A model generated the notes under the pieces. The model made no database searches, was not told the DNA's origin, and worked only from the letters and a program-made list of their open reading frames with translations. Shown here piece after piece: positions 1 through 51,683 of a stretch of DNA of 64,000 nucleotides. Positions within the stretch are counted from its first letter, which is position 1. The number at the start of each line of letters is the position of its first letter. The position numbers and the translations under genes are program-made. Source of the DNA: Bacteroidota bacterium (GTDB taxonomy: Bacteria > Bacteroidota > Bacteroidia > Bacteroidales > Paludibacteraceae); NCBI GenBank assembly GCA_022708505.1, contig JAKIYP010000001.1, positions 19,832-83,831 of the forward strand, given 5' to 3'.

Positions 1-1301
1 GCTCCAACACATTTCGATCCGAGACCAGAGTGAATTGAAAACGCGAAATCAAGGGCAGTAGCTCCTTTTGGCAGTTTATGTAAATCGCCGTTAGGTGTAA
101 ATACAAACACCTCCTCGTCATAGAGATTCAACTTGAACTCATCCATGAAGTCAATGGCATTCAACTCCGGGTTTTCCAGGATTTCACGGATACTCTTCAA
201 CCATTCATCCATATCAGAATCACCCTGAACACCTTTGTATTTCCAGTGTGCCGCCAATCCCTTTTCAGCAACCTCATCCATTCTCCTGGTCCTGATTTGC
301 ACCTCAACCCACTTGTTTTGCGGTCCGAGTACCGTGGTATGCAGACTCTCATAACCGTTTGATTTGGGAATGGAAAGCCAGTCACGCAATCGTTTCGGGT
401 TCGGCTGATACATATCGGCCACCACAGAATAAGCCTGCCAGCAGGCAGCCTTCTCCTTTTCCTGCGGTACATCAAAAATAATTCTGATCGCGAAAAGGTC
501 GTAAATATTCTCAAACGAGGTATTTTGCTTCTTAATCTTGTTGTAAATGGAATGAATCGACTTGGTACGTCCTTTAATCGAGAATTCATAACCCATTGTA
601 GATAACTTCTCTTTTAAAGGTTCGATAAATTCACGAATGTATTTTTCCCTGGACCTTTTCGTTTCATTCAGTTTATGAGCTATTTCTGAATAAATTTCCC
701 GGTTGGTAAACTTCAGCGATAAATCCTCAAGCTCCGTTTTAATGGCATACAAGCCCATTCTGTGGGCCAGCGGAGCATATAAAAACGAACACTCCCGGGC
801 GATATTCAACCTGGCATCATCCGGGTATTCATGCAAATTTCTCATTACCTGCATCTGTTCCGCTATGATAATCAGAATCACCCTGACATCTTCAGCAAAA
901 GTCAACAATAGTTTCCTGAAATTTTCCGATTCAAGAGAAGCACTTCTTGCATACAATTCCCGGACACGCAATAAGCCGGAAATCACCGGTCCGACCGGAG
1001 TTCTGAACCGATGCTCGATATCTTCAATGCGAATCAGGTTATCCCTTACCATTTCGTGCAGCAAAAAGGCAAGTACTGCCGTTTTGCCCAGCCCGACTTC
1101 TTCGAGGATAATTTCTGTGACATTCAGTTTATACAACACCGGATTTCCGGGATAGACAGACTTTGAGGCCGGATGCAGATAATACTGCTTATACAGGCGT
1201 TTTAATTCCAACCTTTCTGCATGAGAAAACAATTTCCCGTGAGACCTGAGAAAACCTGTATAAGACTGAACTATTGGCGATTGTTTTGACATCACATGCA
1301 T
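1..1301 (-). CDS. relA: RelA/SpoT-family (p)ppGpp synthetase, 3' end outside the window
   Basis: Stringent-response alarmone enzyme; 433 residues are visible and the C-terminal part lies beyond base 1. Residues 1-200 correspond to the HD hydrolase domain but the metal ligands look lost: the usual HD pair reads LLHEMV (82-83 are H-E), and the region normally containing a D..HN motif reads AEQMQVMRNL (147-156). The synthetase domain is intact: GRTKSIHSIYNKI (244-256), DLFAIRII (268-275), KSNGYESLHTTV (313-324) and EVQIRT (333-338). A TGS domain begins at about 397 (EEVFVFTPNGDLHKLPKG). I infer a synthesis-only RelA-like enzyme. The start is ATG at 1301; a second ATG three codons later is an alternative. 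It is divergent from the gene at 1616. Confidence 0.93.
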   Translation of the reverse strand, partial: MHVMSKQSPIVQSYTGFLRSHGKLFSHAERLELKRLYKQYYLHPASKSVYPGNPVLYKLNVTEIILEEVGLGKTAVLAFLLHEMVRDNLIRIEDIEHRFRTPVGPVISGLLRVRELYARSASLESENFRKLLLTFAEDVRVILIIIAEQMQVMRNLHEYPDDARLNIARECSFLYAPLAHRMGLYAIKTELEDLSLKFTNREIYSEIAHKLNETKRSREKYIREFIEPLKEKLSTMGYEFSIKGRTKSIHSIYNKIKKQNTSFENIYDLFAIRIIFDVPQEKEKAACWQAYSVVADMYQPNPKRLRDWLSIPKSNGYESLHTTVLGPQNKWVEVQIRTRRMDEVAEKGLAAHWKYKGVQGDSDMDEWLKSIREILENPELNAIDFMDEFKLNLYDEEVFVFTPNGDLHKLPKGATALDFAFSIHSGLGSKCVG

Positions 1302-1446
1302 GTTAACAATTTATTGGTGTGGAATCACAGTACAATGCAAATATACGACAGATTTAGAAAGTAAGATAGTTGTAAGTCTGATTTTTAGAGAAATTCACCT
1401 AAATACTACCGACAAGATAAAATAAATCAAAAAAACCTTTCATATT

Positions 1447-1478
1447 ATTGGCAAGATTGGATTTTCTTTTTAAATTTG
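1447..1478 (+). promoter_or_regulatory. Bacteroidota-type promoter for the 1616 operon
   Basis: TTG at 1448-1450, a 20-base spacer, then TAAATTTG at 1471-1478. This matches the phylum consensus of a -33 TTG and a -7 TAnnTTTG. It would give a leader of about 130 bases before the ATG at 1616. The rest of the 314-base gap between relA and that gene shows nothing else I can name. Confidence 0.75.
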
Positions 1479-1615
1479 CATGCTCAAAAACTTTTTGAGA
1501 CAAAGTTGATCCGTTCAGCTAAATACAATTAATTCAAAGAGATGAAACGTGCATCAAAAGTAAAGTAATATTTTAATGAACGTTTAATAAGACAGGAAAA
1601 AATTTAACATTTCAT

Positions 1616-2299
1616 ATGAAAACAACAATCAAAGTTCTACTGTTCGCTGCTATCGGAATGCTTACATATTTATGTATCATGAGTATTCTTACTCCCATTA
1701 AGTTTGAACGTGAAAGAGCACAAAGAGAGAAGGTCGTAATCGAAACACTTATCAATTTGAGAACAGCTCAGATTGAGCACAGAGATCAAAAGGGTTATTA
1801 CACCGGAAGTCTGGATTCTCTGGTTACGTTTATTAAAACAGGTAAGAAAAAAGTCGTTCTCAAAGAAGGCGTTTTGTCCGACGCACAATTGCTGGCCGGA
1901 TTAACCGAAGCCAAAGCTGCTGCAATCGTGCGCAGGGGAAATCAACGTGAAATTACGGAAAACGGACTTACAGGATTCCGTCGTGACACAACCACGGTTT
2001 CACTTTTGCAGGCATTGTATGAAAACAAATTCACGCCTCAACAAATTGAGAATCTGAAATACATTCCTTTCTCGGAACAAGTTGTTTTTGAGATGGAATT
2101 AAACAACAGTTATGTAAGTTCAAACGGCATTTCGATTCCATTATGCGAAATCCGTGCGCCATACAGAACTTTCCTCTTCGACGTGAACCGTCAGGAAACA
2201 TTAAACCTGATTGATTTACAGGAAAAGTTGGAAAAATATGCCGGTCTAAAAGTAGGAGCAGTCAACGAGCCTAACAACTTTGCCGGTAACTGGGAATAA
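1616..2299 (+). CDS. Single-pass membrane protein, pseudopilin-like periplasmic part
   Basis: 227 residues. Residues 7-27 form one hydrophobic helix after a short Lys-containing N-terminus; the rest is soluble and presumably periplasmic. Just after the helix comes a charged helical stretch (about 31-50) and then HRDQKGYYTGSLDSLVTFI, which resembles the 'GYYP.SLDELV' region of type II/IV pseudopilins. No prepilin peptidase site (GFTLIE) is present, so this is only a resemblance. It is followed after 18 bases by a DUF3822 gene and then rsmD, and all three are probably cotranscribed from the promoter at 1447. No function is assigned. Confidence 0.8.
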   Translation: MKTTIKVLLFAAIGMLTYLCIMSILTPIKFERERAQREKVVIETLINLRTAQIEHRDQKGYYTGSLDSLVTFIKTGKKKVVLKEGVLSDAQLLAGLTEAKAAAIVRRGNQREITENGLTGFRRDTTTVSLLQALYENKFTPQQIENLKYIPFSEQVVFEMELNNSYVSSNGISIPLCEIRAPYRTFLFDVNRQETLNLIDLQEKLEKYAGLKVGAVNEPNNFAGNWE

Positions 2300-7604: not shown

Positions 7605-7708
7605 TTTTACAGAAAAGTCACAGGTTAAATTTTAAAATCCGCAAACTCGCCTTTTCAAGGCTCAAACAGCGCGTCTCTTAAAATTTAACCTGTGACTTTT
7701 CTGTAAAA
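7605..7708. repeat. Long inverted repeat, 31-base perfect arms
   Basis: Arms at 7605-7635 and 7678-7708 are perfectly complementary (TTTTACAGAAAAGTCACAGG... against its reverse complement). The 42-base centre holds a second small hairpin, GCCTT-TTC-AAGGC (7649-7661), flanked by AAACTC and CTCAAACA. It sits between convergent hisC and the TonB receptor gene. It could terminate both transcripts, but the structure is far longer than a terminator needs and looks like a miniature mobile element. Confidence 0.9.
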
Positions 7709-36187: not shown

Positions 36188-39100
36188 ATGGAGTACAATT
36201 TCAGCGAGATAGAAGCAAAGTGGCAGGCATACTGGAAAAATAACCAGACTTACAAAACAGATGTTGATTTACAAAAACCCAAATATTATGTATTAGACAT
36301 GTTCCCCTATCCTTCCGGAGCCGGTTTACACGTGGGACATCCACTGGGATATATCGCATCTGATATCTACAGCCGCTACAAAAGACTTCAGGGTTATAAT
36401 GTTTTACATCCGATGGGATATGATGCTTATGGATTACCTGCTGAACAATACGCCATCCAAACCGGTCAACACCCTGCTGTAACTACAGCAAAAAATATCG
36501 CCCGTTACAGAGAGCAATTGGATAAAATCGGCTTTTGCTACGACTGGGATCGCGAAATCCGCACTTGTGAACCGGATTATTATCACTGGACTCAGTGGGC
36601 TTTTATTCAAATGTTCAATCATTATTTCGATACAAAGTTGCAAAAAGCGATGCCGGTTGAGCTGTTGGTTAAGCATTTTGAAAAAAGTGGCACACAGGAT
36701 ATTAATGCGCATGGGACCGAAGAACTTTGTTTTACGGCATCTGAGTGGAATTCTAAATCAGAGAAAGAACAACAGGAAATACTGCTCAACTACCGCATCG
36801 CTTACCTGGCCGACCTGAAAGTAAACTGGTGCCCGGCTCTCGGAACCGTACTCGCGAATGATGAGGTGAGCGAAGGGGTATCTATTCGCGGAGGACATCC
36901 GGTGGAACAAAAAGTTATGCGTCAGTGGAGTTTGCGGGTTTCGGCCTACGCTCAAAGACTGCTGGACGGATTATCGAAAATCGACTGGACCGACTCGCTG
37001 AAAGAAACACAGAAGAACTGGATTGGTCGCAGCGAGGGTGCTGAGATACACCTCCCCCTGGCCCCCTCCAAAAGAGGGGGAATTGAGGGAAAACCCGTTC
37101 ATTCTCAAATAATAAATTTCCAAGAAAAAGATATCCCTTTATATTATACTGCCGATAAACTTGATTGGAGCTTACTTATTGATCATGCCAAAGCGATGCG
37201 TAGCGAGCCTACTGAGTCTGAAAGCATTCTATGGGAAATGTTACGAGCCAATAAAACCGGATTTAAATTCCGCCGGCAACATCCTGTCGATAAATTTATA
37301 CCCGATTTTGTTTGCATTGAAAAGAAATTGATTGTTGAAGTTGATGGCGATTATCATTTTACCGAAGAACAGATTGAACTTGATAAAGCGAGAACACACA
37401 TACTGGAATTATCCGGATATAAAATGCTTCGTTTCACTAATGATGAAGTAAAATCGACACCGCATTTCGTAATTGAGAAAATCAAAAGTGAGCTGACAAA
37501 AGAGAACTCAAATGATTCGGAAGGCCAGAATCATTCTGCAACTTCCCCCTCCCTCGGAGGGGGCCAGGGGGAGGTGATTGTCTTTACTACCCGTGCGGAT
37601 ACCATATACGGTGTTACATTCATAGTGCTCGCTCCTGAAAGCGAGTTGGTTGAAACATGCACCACTCCTGAACAAGCAGCAGAAGTACAAGCCTATATCG
37701 ATACAACAAAGAAGCGAACCGAACGGGAAAGAATCGCCGACCGTCGCGTTACCGGGGTTTTTTCAGGCTCTTACGCTATCAATCCGGTCAGTGGAACAGA
37801 AATTCCGATCTGGATTTCGGATTATGTGCTGGCCGGATATGGAACCGGTGCTATCATGGCGGTACCTGCACACGACAGTCGCGACTATGCTTTTGCCAAA
37901 CACTTCAACCTGCCGATTATCCCATTAATTGAAGGTTGCGATGTGTCTGAAGAAAGTTTTGATGCAAAAGAAGGCATCATGATGAATTCAGGTTTTCTGA
38001 ACGGCTTAACGGTTAAAGAAGCCATTGAAAAAGCAAAAACTTATGTAGAAGAAAAAGGAATCGGCAGAATCAAGGTAAATTTCCGCCTACGTGATGCCAT
38101 TTTCAGTCGCCAGCGTTACTGGGGTGAGCCCTTCCCTGTTTACTACAAAGACGATATGCCCTACATGCTCGATGAGAGCAAATTACCATTGATACTTCCT
38201 GAGGTGGATAAATTCCTGCCGACTGAAAAAGGGGAACCACCATTAGGCAGGGCAAAAAACTGGCATACAGCAGATGGTTTTCCATTGGAATTATGTACCA
38301 TGCCCGGATTTGCCGGTTCGTCTGCATACTACCTGCGCTACATGGATCCCAAAAACGACAAGGCATTGGTTAGCAAGGAAGCGAACGAATACTGGCGCAA
38401 TGTCGATTTATATATCGGTGGGACGGAACATGCAACCGGTCACCTTGTTTACAGCCGTTTCTGGAATAAATTCCTGTTTGATCTTGGATTGGTTTGTGAG
38501 GATGAACCGTTTAAGAAACTGATTAATCAGGGAATGATTCAGGGACGGAGTAATTTTGTGTACAGGGTGAAGCACCCCCTTCCAACCTCCCCCGAAGGGG
38601 GAGGAGATACGCACTCCTCAAGTACGCAAAGCCCTGAAAGTGCGCTCACTCCTCCCCCTTCGGGGGAGGTCGGGAGGGGGTCGGGGTGCTTTGTTTCTCT
38701 CGGCTTAAAAGACCAATACGACACTACTCCAATCCACGTCGATGTTAATATCGTTTCAAATGATATACTGGATATTGAAAAGTTCCGTTCCTGGCGTCCG
38801 GAATTTGCAGATGCTGAATTCATCCTTGAAGATGGAAAATACATTTGCGGATGGGCAGTTGAAAAGATGTCTAAGTCCATGTTTAACGTGGTGAATCCGG
38901 ATGATATCGTGGAAAGATACGGAGCCGATACCCTGCGCTTGTATGAGATGTTTCTGGGTCCGCTCGAACAATCGAAACCATGGGATACCAACGGCATTGA
39001 TGGAGTGCACCGCTTCCTGAAACGCCTCTGGGCGCTGTTCTATAAAGAGGGTGAATCGTTACTCAACGAGGATCAACCTTCAGCAGAAGAACTCAAAATT

Positions 39101-39544
39101 TTGCACAAGACAATAAAAAAGATTACTTTCGACATCGAGAACTTTTCATTCAACACATCTGTTTCTGCTTTTATGATTTGCGTGAATGAATTGTCGGCGC
39201 TTAAATGCAGCAAAAAAGCAATTTTGGAACCTTTAGTGATTTTACTGGCTCCATTTGCACCGCATATCGCGGAGGAACTGTATCATGCGCTTGGACATAC
39301 CGGCACTGTTTGTGATGCCGCATTTCCGGTTTGCAATGAAGCATTCTTAGTTGAATCGACCGTGAAATATCCGATTTCATTCAACGGGAAAGTAAGGTTT
39401 ACACTGGAACTTCCGGCCGACATGAACAAGGCGGATGTGGAAAAAGAAGCGCTGGAAAACGAAAATACGATTAAACAACTGAACGGAGCAACCATTAAAA
39501 AGGTGATTGTGGTACCCGGGAAGATTGTGAATATAGTTATTTAG
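36188..39544 (+). CDS. leuS: Leucyl-tRNA synthetase with two in-frame insertions
   Basis: 1118 residues, about 216 more than its own core, so it is abnormally long. Class I synthetase: HIGH-type HVGH at 48-51 and KMSKS at 893-897; the CP1 editing domain has [10 protein letters not shown] (466-475) and [15 protein letters not shown] (conserved Asp at 563). Residues 288-463 are an inserted DUF559 endonuclease domain that interrupts the entrance to the editing domain. Residues 795-834 ([10 protein letters not shown] to GEVGRG) are a second low-complexity insertion between YRVK and [14 protein letters not shown]. Both are multiples of three and free of stops, and the catalytic and editing motifs are intact, so the enzyme is probably active. 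Single transcript; divergent from rex. Confidence 0.95.
37049..37576 (+). mobile_element. 528-base in-frame element with DUF559 endonuclease, inside leuS
   Basis: Bounded by inverted repeats at 37049-37084 and 37540-37576; the outer 21 bases of each arm (CACCTCCCCCTGGCCCCCTC...) are perfectly complementary, and each arm contains its own hairpin (CCCCCTC/GAGGGGG). Exactly 176 codons, open in the leuS frame. It encodes [10 protein letters not shown], then a DUF559 (Vsr/PD-(D/E)XK-type) domain at leuS residues about 330-445: [28 protein letters not shown] and VEVDGDYH, with Asp373, Glu384 and Asp386 as likely catalytic residues, and ends [11 protein letters not shown]. There is no Met before residue about 336, so it seems to be made only as part of LeuRS. 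Confidence 0.88.
38571..38690 (+). mobile_element. 120-base in-frame palindromic element without a domain, inside leuS
   Basis: Left arm 38571-38606 and right arm 38649-38690 are reverse complements (AGCACCCC..., CCTCCCCCGAAGGGGGAGG) apart from a 6-base gap and one or two mismatches; the arm cores are hairpins with a GAA loop. The centre (42 bases) has no recognisable domain. It encodes 40 residues rich in Pro, Gly and Ser, in frame. Similar C-rich arms to the endonuclease-bearing element 1 kb upstream. Confidence 0.85.
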
Positions 39545-51335: not shown

Positions 51336-51360
51336 AAAAACCGACTATATGTCGGTTTTT
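51336..51360 (-). terminator. Terminator of the tRNA-Val pair
   Basis: AAAAACCGAC-TATAT-GTCGGTTTTT, perfect 10-base stem, loop of 5, directly after the tRNA genes on the minus strand, with a T-run following. Confidence 0.88.
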
Positions 51361-51365
51361 TCAAG

Positions 51366-51440
51366 TGGGCGTTGACGGATTCGAACCGCCGACCCTCTGC
51401 TTGTAAGGCAGATGCTCTGAACCAGCTGAGCTAAACGCCC
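51366..51440 (-). tRNA. tRNA-Val (anticodon TAC), copy 2
   Basis: Acceptor GGGCGTT/AACGCCC, D-arm AGCTCAGCTGGTTCAGAGC, anticodon stem TCTGC/GCAGA with loop CTTACAA (anticodon TAC), T-loop GGTTCGAATCC, discriminator A. CCA not encoded. Identical to the copy 38 bases upstream at 51479. Confidence 0.96.
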
Positions 51441-51478
51441 GAAAAAGTTGTGTGTTTTATAATAATATCGATTTGATG

Positions 51479-51553
51479 TGGGCGTTGACGGATTCGAACC
51501 GCCGACCCTCTGCTTGTAAGGCAGATGCTCTGAACCAGCTGAGCTAAACGCCC
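51479..51553 (-). tRNA. tRNA-Val (anticodon TAC), copy 1
   Basis: Same 75-base sequence as the copy at 51366. The two genes lie in tandem on the minus strand and probably form one transcript ending at 51336. Confidence 0.96.
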
Positions 51554-51683
51554 GATATTTTACATCAAGATCTTTACTTCTAAAGCGGTGCAAAGATACT
51601 ATTAATTTTGAATTCTCAAAAAAGTTTTGAAAAAAAACATAAATAGAAAGTAAAATTTCTGATATTTTCGAGACTTTTTGTTC

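Follow-up and report, generated by a model that had tools for sequence, protein, structure and literature searches.

How does a nuclease domain come to be encoded in the middle of a leucyl-tRNA synthetase, between two inverted repeats? We followed this question from a single leuS gene into related genomes. The gene lies in a window of 64 kb (the whole stretch of DNA that was analysed), which is part of contig C86 of a draft genome of 2.4 Mb that is 75% complete; the best-matching named records are Paludibacter sp.

A nuclease domain in the leuS frame

In the window, leuS spans 36188–39544 on the plus strand as one open frame of 1118 aa with two in-frame inserts, whereas the uncut leuS genes of relatives without the nuclease (empty alleles) have stop-to-stop frames of 917–1014 aa. 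The first insert is a 528-bp element (37049–37576, plus strand) that is open in the leuS frame, with no stop in it, and lies between the conserved stretches GRSEGAE and FTTRADT. Its left arm (37049–37082) consists of an outer C-rich stretch and an inner hairpin with a modest fold of its own (z –1.6), and its right arm (37543–37576) has a fold of its own that is not unusual (z –0.5). The arms are 34 nt each, 91% complementary and 460 nt apart, and by eye their outer 21 bases pair perfectly. When we searched the 64-kb window for a 19-base arm stretch with up to three mismatches, the two arms were the only matches (0/100 in shuffled sequence).

Between the arms, residues 332–436 of LeuRS (37181–37495, plus strand) match the DUF559 family (PF04480), a nuclease domain of PD-(D/E)XK or Vsr fold, with an E-value of 2.1e-30 and 105.2 bits against a curated cut-off of 20.6, and LeuRS domains flank this match on either side. 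The open frame, the arms and the Pfam match confirm what a sequence-only reading of this DNA had described, an in-frame, palindrome-ended DUF559 block of 528 bases in leuS. The acidic residues singled out in that reading, D373, E384 and D386 (codons within 37304–37345, plus strand), are invariant in 11 full-length LeuRS and, as D48, E59 and D61 of the domain, in 60/60 aligned domains (the window's own and 59 taken from the 81 copies of loci L188–L267). Of the synthetase motifs, HVGH does not vary either in the 11 aligned LeuRS, and KMSKS varies hardly or not at all. At an E-value of 0.001, Pfam found only DUF559, MTES_1575 and LeuRS families in the leuS product, and no protein-splicing (intein) domain.

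An AF2 model of the domain (pLDDT 86.4) matched the folds of NGO0050 (3hrl, E 1e-7) and of the catalytic domain of the homing endonuclease I-Bth0305I (3r3p, E 2.4e-5), and more weakly that of Vsr (1cw0, E 5.5e-3). By these Pfam and fold matches, the enzyme of the element is a DUF559 member with a Vsr-like PD-(D/E)XK fold and a predicted nuclease. Its dN/dS values of 0–0.29, from 34 non-independent pairs, point to purifying selection. The insertion place in LeuRS is probably a surface hairpin or loop; since a full-length LeuRS model built from 11 sequences reached a pLDDT of only 44.3, this placement comes from sequence alignment and general knowledge of LeuRS.

Occupied, empty and scarred genes

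When we queried 200 family genomes with leuS, we found a match in 190 and the nuclease inside leuS in at least 12 of the 200, the window's genome included. We then compared 42 leuS genes, these 12 full alleles and 30 others hand-picked from the listing. Read from the sequences, 26 of the 42 are empty and 4 carry arm scars, so that the search for clean alleles among relatives, which the sequence-only reading had proposed, did turn them up. The scars are in-frame arm remnants; L098, L101 and L104 keep the right arm and L136 keeps the left arm. On a host tree, the presence of the element requires nine changes, six of them forced by starred branches, and the closest pair of a full and an empty allele (L126 and L113) is 94.3% identical in the host part.

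Between the conserved codons, empty alleles have 30–36 nt and full alleles 480–597 nt. The window has 531 nt there, which means that most of the short variable segment is missing from its leuS. In L129, the element occupies the place of 15 nt, the turn itself, in the empty L124. The element thus stands where empty alleles have a short segment or a turn, and host bases are missing at it. The proposed insertion into leuS therefore holds in that the block is present, but it is not a plain addition of 528 bases.

Two other arrangements were seen among these leuS genes. In L134 (G038), what splits leuS at the KNW..PLEL place (locus 1269–1733, minus strand) is a PDDEXK_3 gene (PF13366, E 2.8e-34), from a nuclease family other than DUF559. 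The insertion has matching ends by eye, TCTTGAACCA and TGGTTCAAGA, and the second half of leuS starts with its own Met; this is either another nuclease element or a LeuRS made in two pieces. In L105 (G001) and L133 (G071), a different insert of about 80 and about 45 extra residues, with ISQKYYD or ISKKYYD in common, lies between NFVYR and HVDV, the place of the second palindrome in the window's leuS, and looks like another kind of insertion.

The leuS query also matched DUF559 within many other long frames of the family genomes. From these matches we retrieved 53 loci with 54 domains, along with 7 further loci, and named the hosts by Pfam on cluster representatives. In the family set the hosts are ileS (at two places), valS, metH, purL, uvrA, SpoIID, type ISP enzymes, a DegT aminotransferase, PrmC, FemAB and a TPR protein; the phylum and named-record sets add UvrD-like proteins, Lhr, RecG, methylmalonyl-CoA mutase, IspF, HsdR and methylase proteins. 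The ileS of L074 is occupied at both ileS places, and for metH we could compare occupied, empty and scarred (L154, L164) alleles within the genus. Among cultured isolates, Dysgonomonas PF1-14, Dysgonomonas 521 and Flavobacterium subsaxonicum carry the element near position 294 of leuS, Pedobacter Leaf194 near position 530, and Mucilaginibacter OK268 in an Lhr helicase. In Marinilabilia rubra, a DUF559 domain lies in ileS with no arms by the score described below. One leuS, L195 (Bacteroidetes MAG 341R), contains two DUF559 elements, near 294 and near 530.

DUF559 occurs in 222 of 395 genomes of the phylum, and among the 150 best-scoring copies listed for these genomes 47 lie in frames of at least 400 aa. 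Within the genus, 48 genomes gave 88 full-length copies, 39 of them in such frames. In the fetched set the count is 133/168, which is no natural fraction because this set was drawn mainly from long-frame copies. In restriction or methylase hosts, which these counts include, DUF559 might be a native domain. In the IspF frames the nuclease comes first, and in the cell it may be separate from its host. Stand-alone nuclease genes were never in a frame spanning the element (0/23), and 8/23 had open frames entering from both sides; among three of these eight examined by Pfam, two sit between two different genes. A purely local oddity is ruled out by occurrence in the family, phylum and named-record searches. 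These comparisons extend the sequence-only reading to many host genes, the whole phylum, scars, loop replacement and nuclease-free in-frame palindromes, and at the level of sequence, nuclease elements with palindromic ends make up a family that spans the phylum and lies in frame in core genes.

Arms and nuclease-free palindromes

To quantify how often DUF559 copies are flanked by arms, we took as arm score that of the strongest inverted repeat between the two 250-nt flanks of the domain, with a threshold of 13, and left out copies less than 60 nt from a sequence end and DNA-identical copies. We found that 129 of 168 distinct copies reach this score, compared to 5/322 random places in the same loci and 32/300 mispaired flanks, and that 39/168 are armless by this score. 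A chance palindrome is ruled out by the random places and by the shuffles of the window's arm. The idea that such arms would surround DUF559 genes elsewhere is borne out by these 129 copies, but not by L002, the sole other DUF559 gene of the window's genome, which is a distant relative and has no arms. When the two members of a pair lie in different host genes, the similarity of their arms follows that of their nucleases (Spearman 0.36; maximum of 500 permutations 0.14), and in G072 the five occupied host genes have five differing arm sequences. By eye, we saw neither a target-site duplication nor a common target motif in 83 flank pairs, in which the arm ends are fuzzy.

Palindromes of this kind are also found without a nuclease. 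The second insert of the window's leuS (38574–38681) is a nuclease-free, in-frame palindrome of 108 bases with a DNA fold of –44.5 kcal/mol (z –9.4). It is common to G061 and absent from most relatives, which read YRIKDTNTFVS or similar at this place. At a third place in leuS, palindrome-derived inserts are seen by eye in L101, L119, L126, L128 and L130. The window's own genome has short in-frame palindromes in alaS (L004) and purL (L007) and one directly downstream of tuf; those in alaS and purL translate to LPPTPSQGGG and LPPTPSKGGG, and of the 9 purL genes we looked at, 4 encode a similar peptide at the corresponding position.

Across the 48 genus genomes, we counted 220 palindromes of one type compared to 9 of the reversed pattern. 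Palindrome count rises with the number of DUF559 copies (rho 0.45, p 0.001), a correlation that is partly built in because the arms themselves are counted. The median is 4 palindromes in genomes with full-length DUF559 and 1 in genomes without it (p 0.05); 6 of the 34 genomes with it have no palindrome of the counted type and 6 of the 14 without it have at least two. Two other repeats lie in the window. An inverted repeat at 7605–7708, with 38-nt arms that are 92% complementary and 28 nt apart, is unlike the GC-rich arms, and at 51359–51555 there are two tandem 84-nt copies on the minus strand, 98% identical and tRNA-like by eye.

Mobility of the element and its possible explanations

To identify whether element lineages stay with their host genes, we placed host labels on trees of the nuclease. 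In a tree of 74 rows the labels change 18 times (least possible 11; shuffled mean 50.2); a broader tree of 167 rows, in which resolution is poor, needs 49 changes (least 29; shuffled 121.5). Lineages thus mostly stay in one host gene but do switch. The insert of the TPR protein is nested in a metH clade, and that of FemAB in a DegT clade. In G042, apparently a single ileS, on two contigs that share about 200 nt, has two copies at two places; these are identical at 416 of 433 nt (96%), and the match ends near CAGACCCCCC...GGGGGGTCTG.

Mapped on an empty leuS, the inserts cluster at two positions: 37 distinct copies lie around 294, under record names that span Paludibacter to Flavobacteriaceae and Chitinophagaceae, and 7 lie around 530. 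At 294, host similarity and nuclease similarity are weakly correlated (rho 0.18, p 0.001; 26 sequences, 325 pairs). Vertical inheritance alone is ruled out by this weak correlation together with the nine changes of presence on the host tree. At leuS we thus find recurrence at a site and patchiness among relatives, which are expected of a homing element.

We compared synonymous divergence of nuclease and host in seven leuS pairs. In L237/L259, nuclease dS is 0.61; among ten leuS blocks, the value is 0.56 in the one adjoining the insert and 1.77 to saturation in the remaining nine. In L126/L127, nuclease dS is 0.34 and leuS ranges from 0.72 to saturation. In L237/L243, nuclease dS is 0.40, with nine leuS blocks at 1.14 to saturation and one at 0.23. 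In L243/L259, nuclease dS is 0.47 and leuS 0.34–1.65, and this pair looks vertically inherited. The remaining three pairs, with nuclease dS of 1.9 or saturated, are too diverged to tell. The nuclease is thus far less diverged than its host gene in 3/7 pairs, as homing predicts, in a sample that was partly picked as outliers (the two L237 pairs topped the list of host-versus-nuclease outliers). The earlier likening of the block to a homing gene without splicing is consistent with the recurrent leuS site and with these three pairs, and mobility of the element is supported by these sequence comparisons.

Taken together, these data show an element between conserved stretches that is patchy at the same sites, has lineages that changed host gene and has nuclease-free in-frame kin. 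With a probability of about 0.6, we read it as a selfish nuclease element with palindromic ends that makes its home within the reading frames of host genes; it would be homing-like, splicing-free and adapted to being translated through. The occupied places would be surface loops, and the nuclease would be made as part of the host protein, with no splicing. It would cut or nick an empty allele at that place, and repair would copy the element from the occupied allele into the empty one; we infer cleavage, this route of transfer and homing from the patterns above, and homing would explain recurrence at one site. Rare jumps would carry the element elsewhere, with the hairpin arms as the ends recognised by the nuclease, and in essential genes the survivors would be only the landings that are in frame and tolerated by the fold. 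The arms would then be read as linkers rich in Pro, Gly and Ser. Essentiality of the host gene would shield the element from crude deletion, so that it would leave by in-frame loss, and scars would result. The missing host bases are not given by plain homing into an intact site, although later trimming could account for them.

The same patterns can be read as transposition. The DUF559 enzyme would work in the manner of RAYT or IS200/IS605 enzymes, with the hairpin arms as its substrate; the element would be released or copied and would integrate at loops, and recurrence at leuS 294 would reflect target preference and survival of the sites that the fold tolerates. The REP-like ends (outer stretch plus hairpin), the covariation of arms with the enzyme, the nuclease-free palindromes in leuS, alaS and purL, the host-gene changes, and the replacement of host bases with no duplication seen by eye all fit; however, the fold is PD-(D/E)XK and not HUH, and homing predicts both the recurrence at one leuS place, with 37 copies from distant families, and the lower divergence of the nuclease in three of the seven pairs. 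We consider transposition unlikely, though worth keeping in mind. Movement of the palindromes by an HUH (RAYT-type) transposase or by recombination, with DUF559 as a passenger carried between two of them, seems to us improbable. HUH genes of the Y1 family are present in 12/12 carrier genomes tested, and in three of five genus-mates with 0–1 palindromes, the other two having none, so that HUH presence did not separate these rivals. Palindromes in genomes with no full-length DUF559 (e.g. G186, G203, G194 and G213, three of these four less than 90% complete) would suit a passenger, but the covariation of arms and nuclease, the kept active-site residues and low dN/dS, and the partly built-in rise of palindrome counts with DUF559 in the 48 genomes speak against one.

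We think it very improbable that DUF559 is an accessory domain of ancient origin, retained because it serves the host in repair, regulation or defence through LeuRS, and often lost. Purifying selection, a leuS place conserved across families and the vertical look of L243/L259 would be expected of such a domain, yet the same domain occurs in many unrelated proteins, its presence is patchy and leaves scars, two near-identical copies sit in what looks like one ileS, and host and nuclease are only weakly correlated. To an assembly artefact or a dead allele we give almost no weight, even though the window comes from a 75%-complete draft and leuS of G038 is broken into two frames. The same insert is found in G061, a 99%-complete genome with a leuS host part 99.4% identical to the window's, and leuS is open over at least 1084 codons in 10 of the 12 full genomes (in G010 it ends at the contig end and G038 is the broken one). 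Each of the 12 has a single leuS; the sequence-only reading had asked for a clean second copy, and none was found, in the window's genome within its 75% completeness, the further weak leuS hits (E 4e-7 or worse, 26–37% identity) being presumably other synthetases. For the family, the cultured isolates (Dysgonomonas, Flavobacterium subsaxonicum, Pedobacter, Mucilaginibacter) refute an artefact.

Our preferred reading, a homing-like nuclease element, can be set against known systems, of which the element resembles Rickettsia palindromic elements (RPE), REP/RAYT units and homing endonucleases while lacking a defining feature of each of the last two. RPE, as described in a review, are in-frame palindromes of about 150 bp in many unrelated protein genes (PMC10969869). 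The likeness, drawn from that description and not from RPE sequences, is that here too palindromes lie in frame in protein genes; unlike RPE as described there, the element brings along a nuclease gene, is met repeatedly at fixed places and belongs to Bacteroidota. In REP/RAYT units (REPtrons) and TIRtrons, a published account places an enzyme gene between inverted palindromic units, with dispersed enzyme-free units and some REPs inside genes (PMC3733652). Palindromic units flank an enzyme and occur solo elsewhere in our element as well; in contrast to that account, the enzyme between the arms is a PD-(D/E)XK DUF559 nuclease, not an HUH tyrosine transposase, and the nuclease-bearing unit itself lies in frame inside core genes.

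With homing endonucleases (EDxHD family, I-Bth0305I) and inteins, going by a review (PMC3943268), the element has in common a selfish nuclease in conserved genes, recurrent sites and a matching fold. It differs from them in its palindromic arms, its host-gene changes and the lack of any splicing domain found, and from the EDxHD enzymes as that review describes them in consisting of DUF559 alone, without extended DNA-binding regions. In fungal mitochondria, rps3-LAGLIDADG fusions join a homing endonuclease sequence in frame to a host protein, described for one gene of a few species (PMC7902536), whereas our element is internal, in many genes and palindrome-ended. VsrA of Caulobacter is a Vsr-like DUF559 protein from a separate gene with a predicted role in mismatch repair (PMC12907096); it belongs to the same domain family as the element, yet is no mobile element by that account. 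In our reading, the element behaves as a homing endonuclease would if it had REP-type ends; it is a member of neither REP/RAYT units nor inteins, since a search for the defining parts of both came up empty. The sequence-only reading knew of no formal description of this arrangement, and we found none in the literature searched, outside of which lie most subscription-journal papers and all bioRxiv preprints.

We see even odds for a broader proposal, that this is a class of autonomous mobile element made for life in essential protein genes, having given up its stop codon, kept its length in frame and turned its palindromic ends into protein linkers. Such an element would need neither intein nor intron because the host protein puts up with it at loops, would home into empty alleles and would seed nuclease-free in-frame palindromes across the Bacteroidota proteome. 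According to the review cited above, a splicing device is what frees homing endonuclease genes to enter conserved sequences (PMC3943268); if our reading is true, no such device is needed for a selfish nuclease to settle in the middle of essential proteins. It would also account for puzzling extra domains within core enzymes of the phylum, tRNA synthetases among them, point to a function of many DUF559 genes, show one way in which proteins acquire domains and linkers, and make the natural sites into markers of where essential proteins tolerate large insertions. Armed DUF559 copies inside long frames were also seen in two records named outside Bacteroidota, a Candidatus Aminicenantes MAG (L265) and a Candidatus Saccharibacteria record (L197), which reflect either transfer or misbinning.
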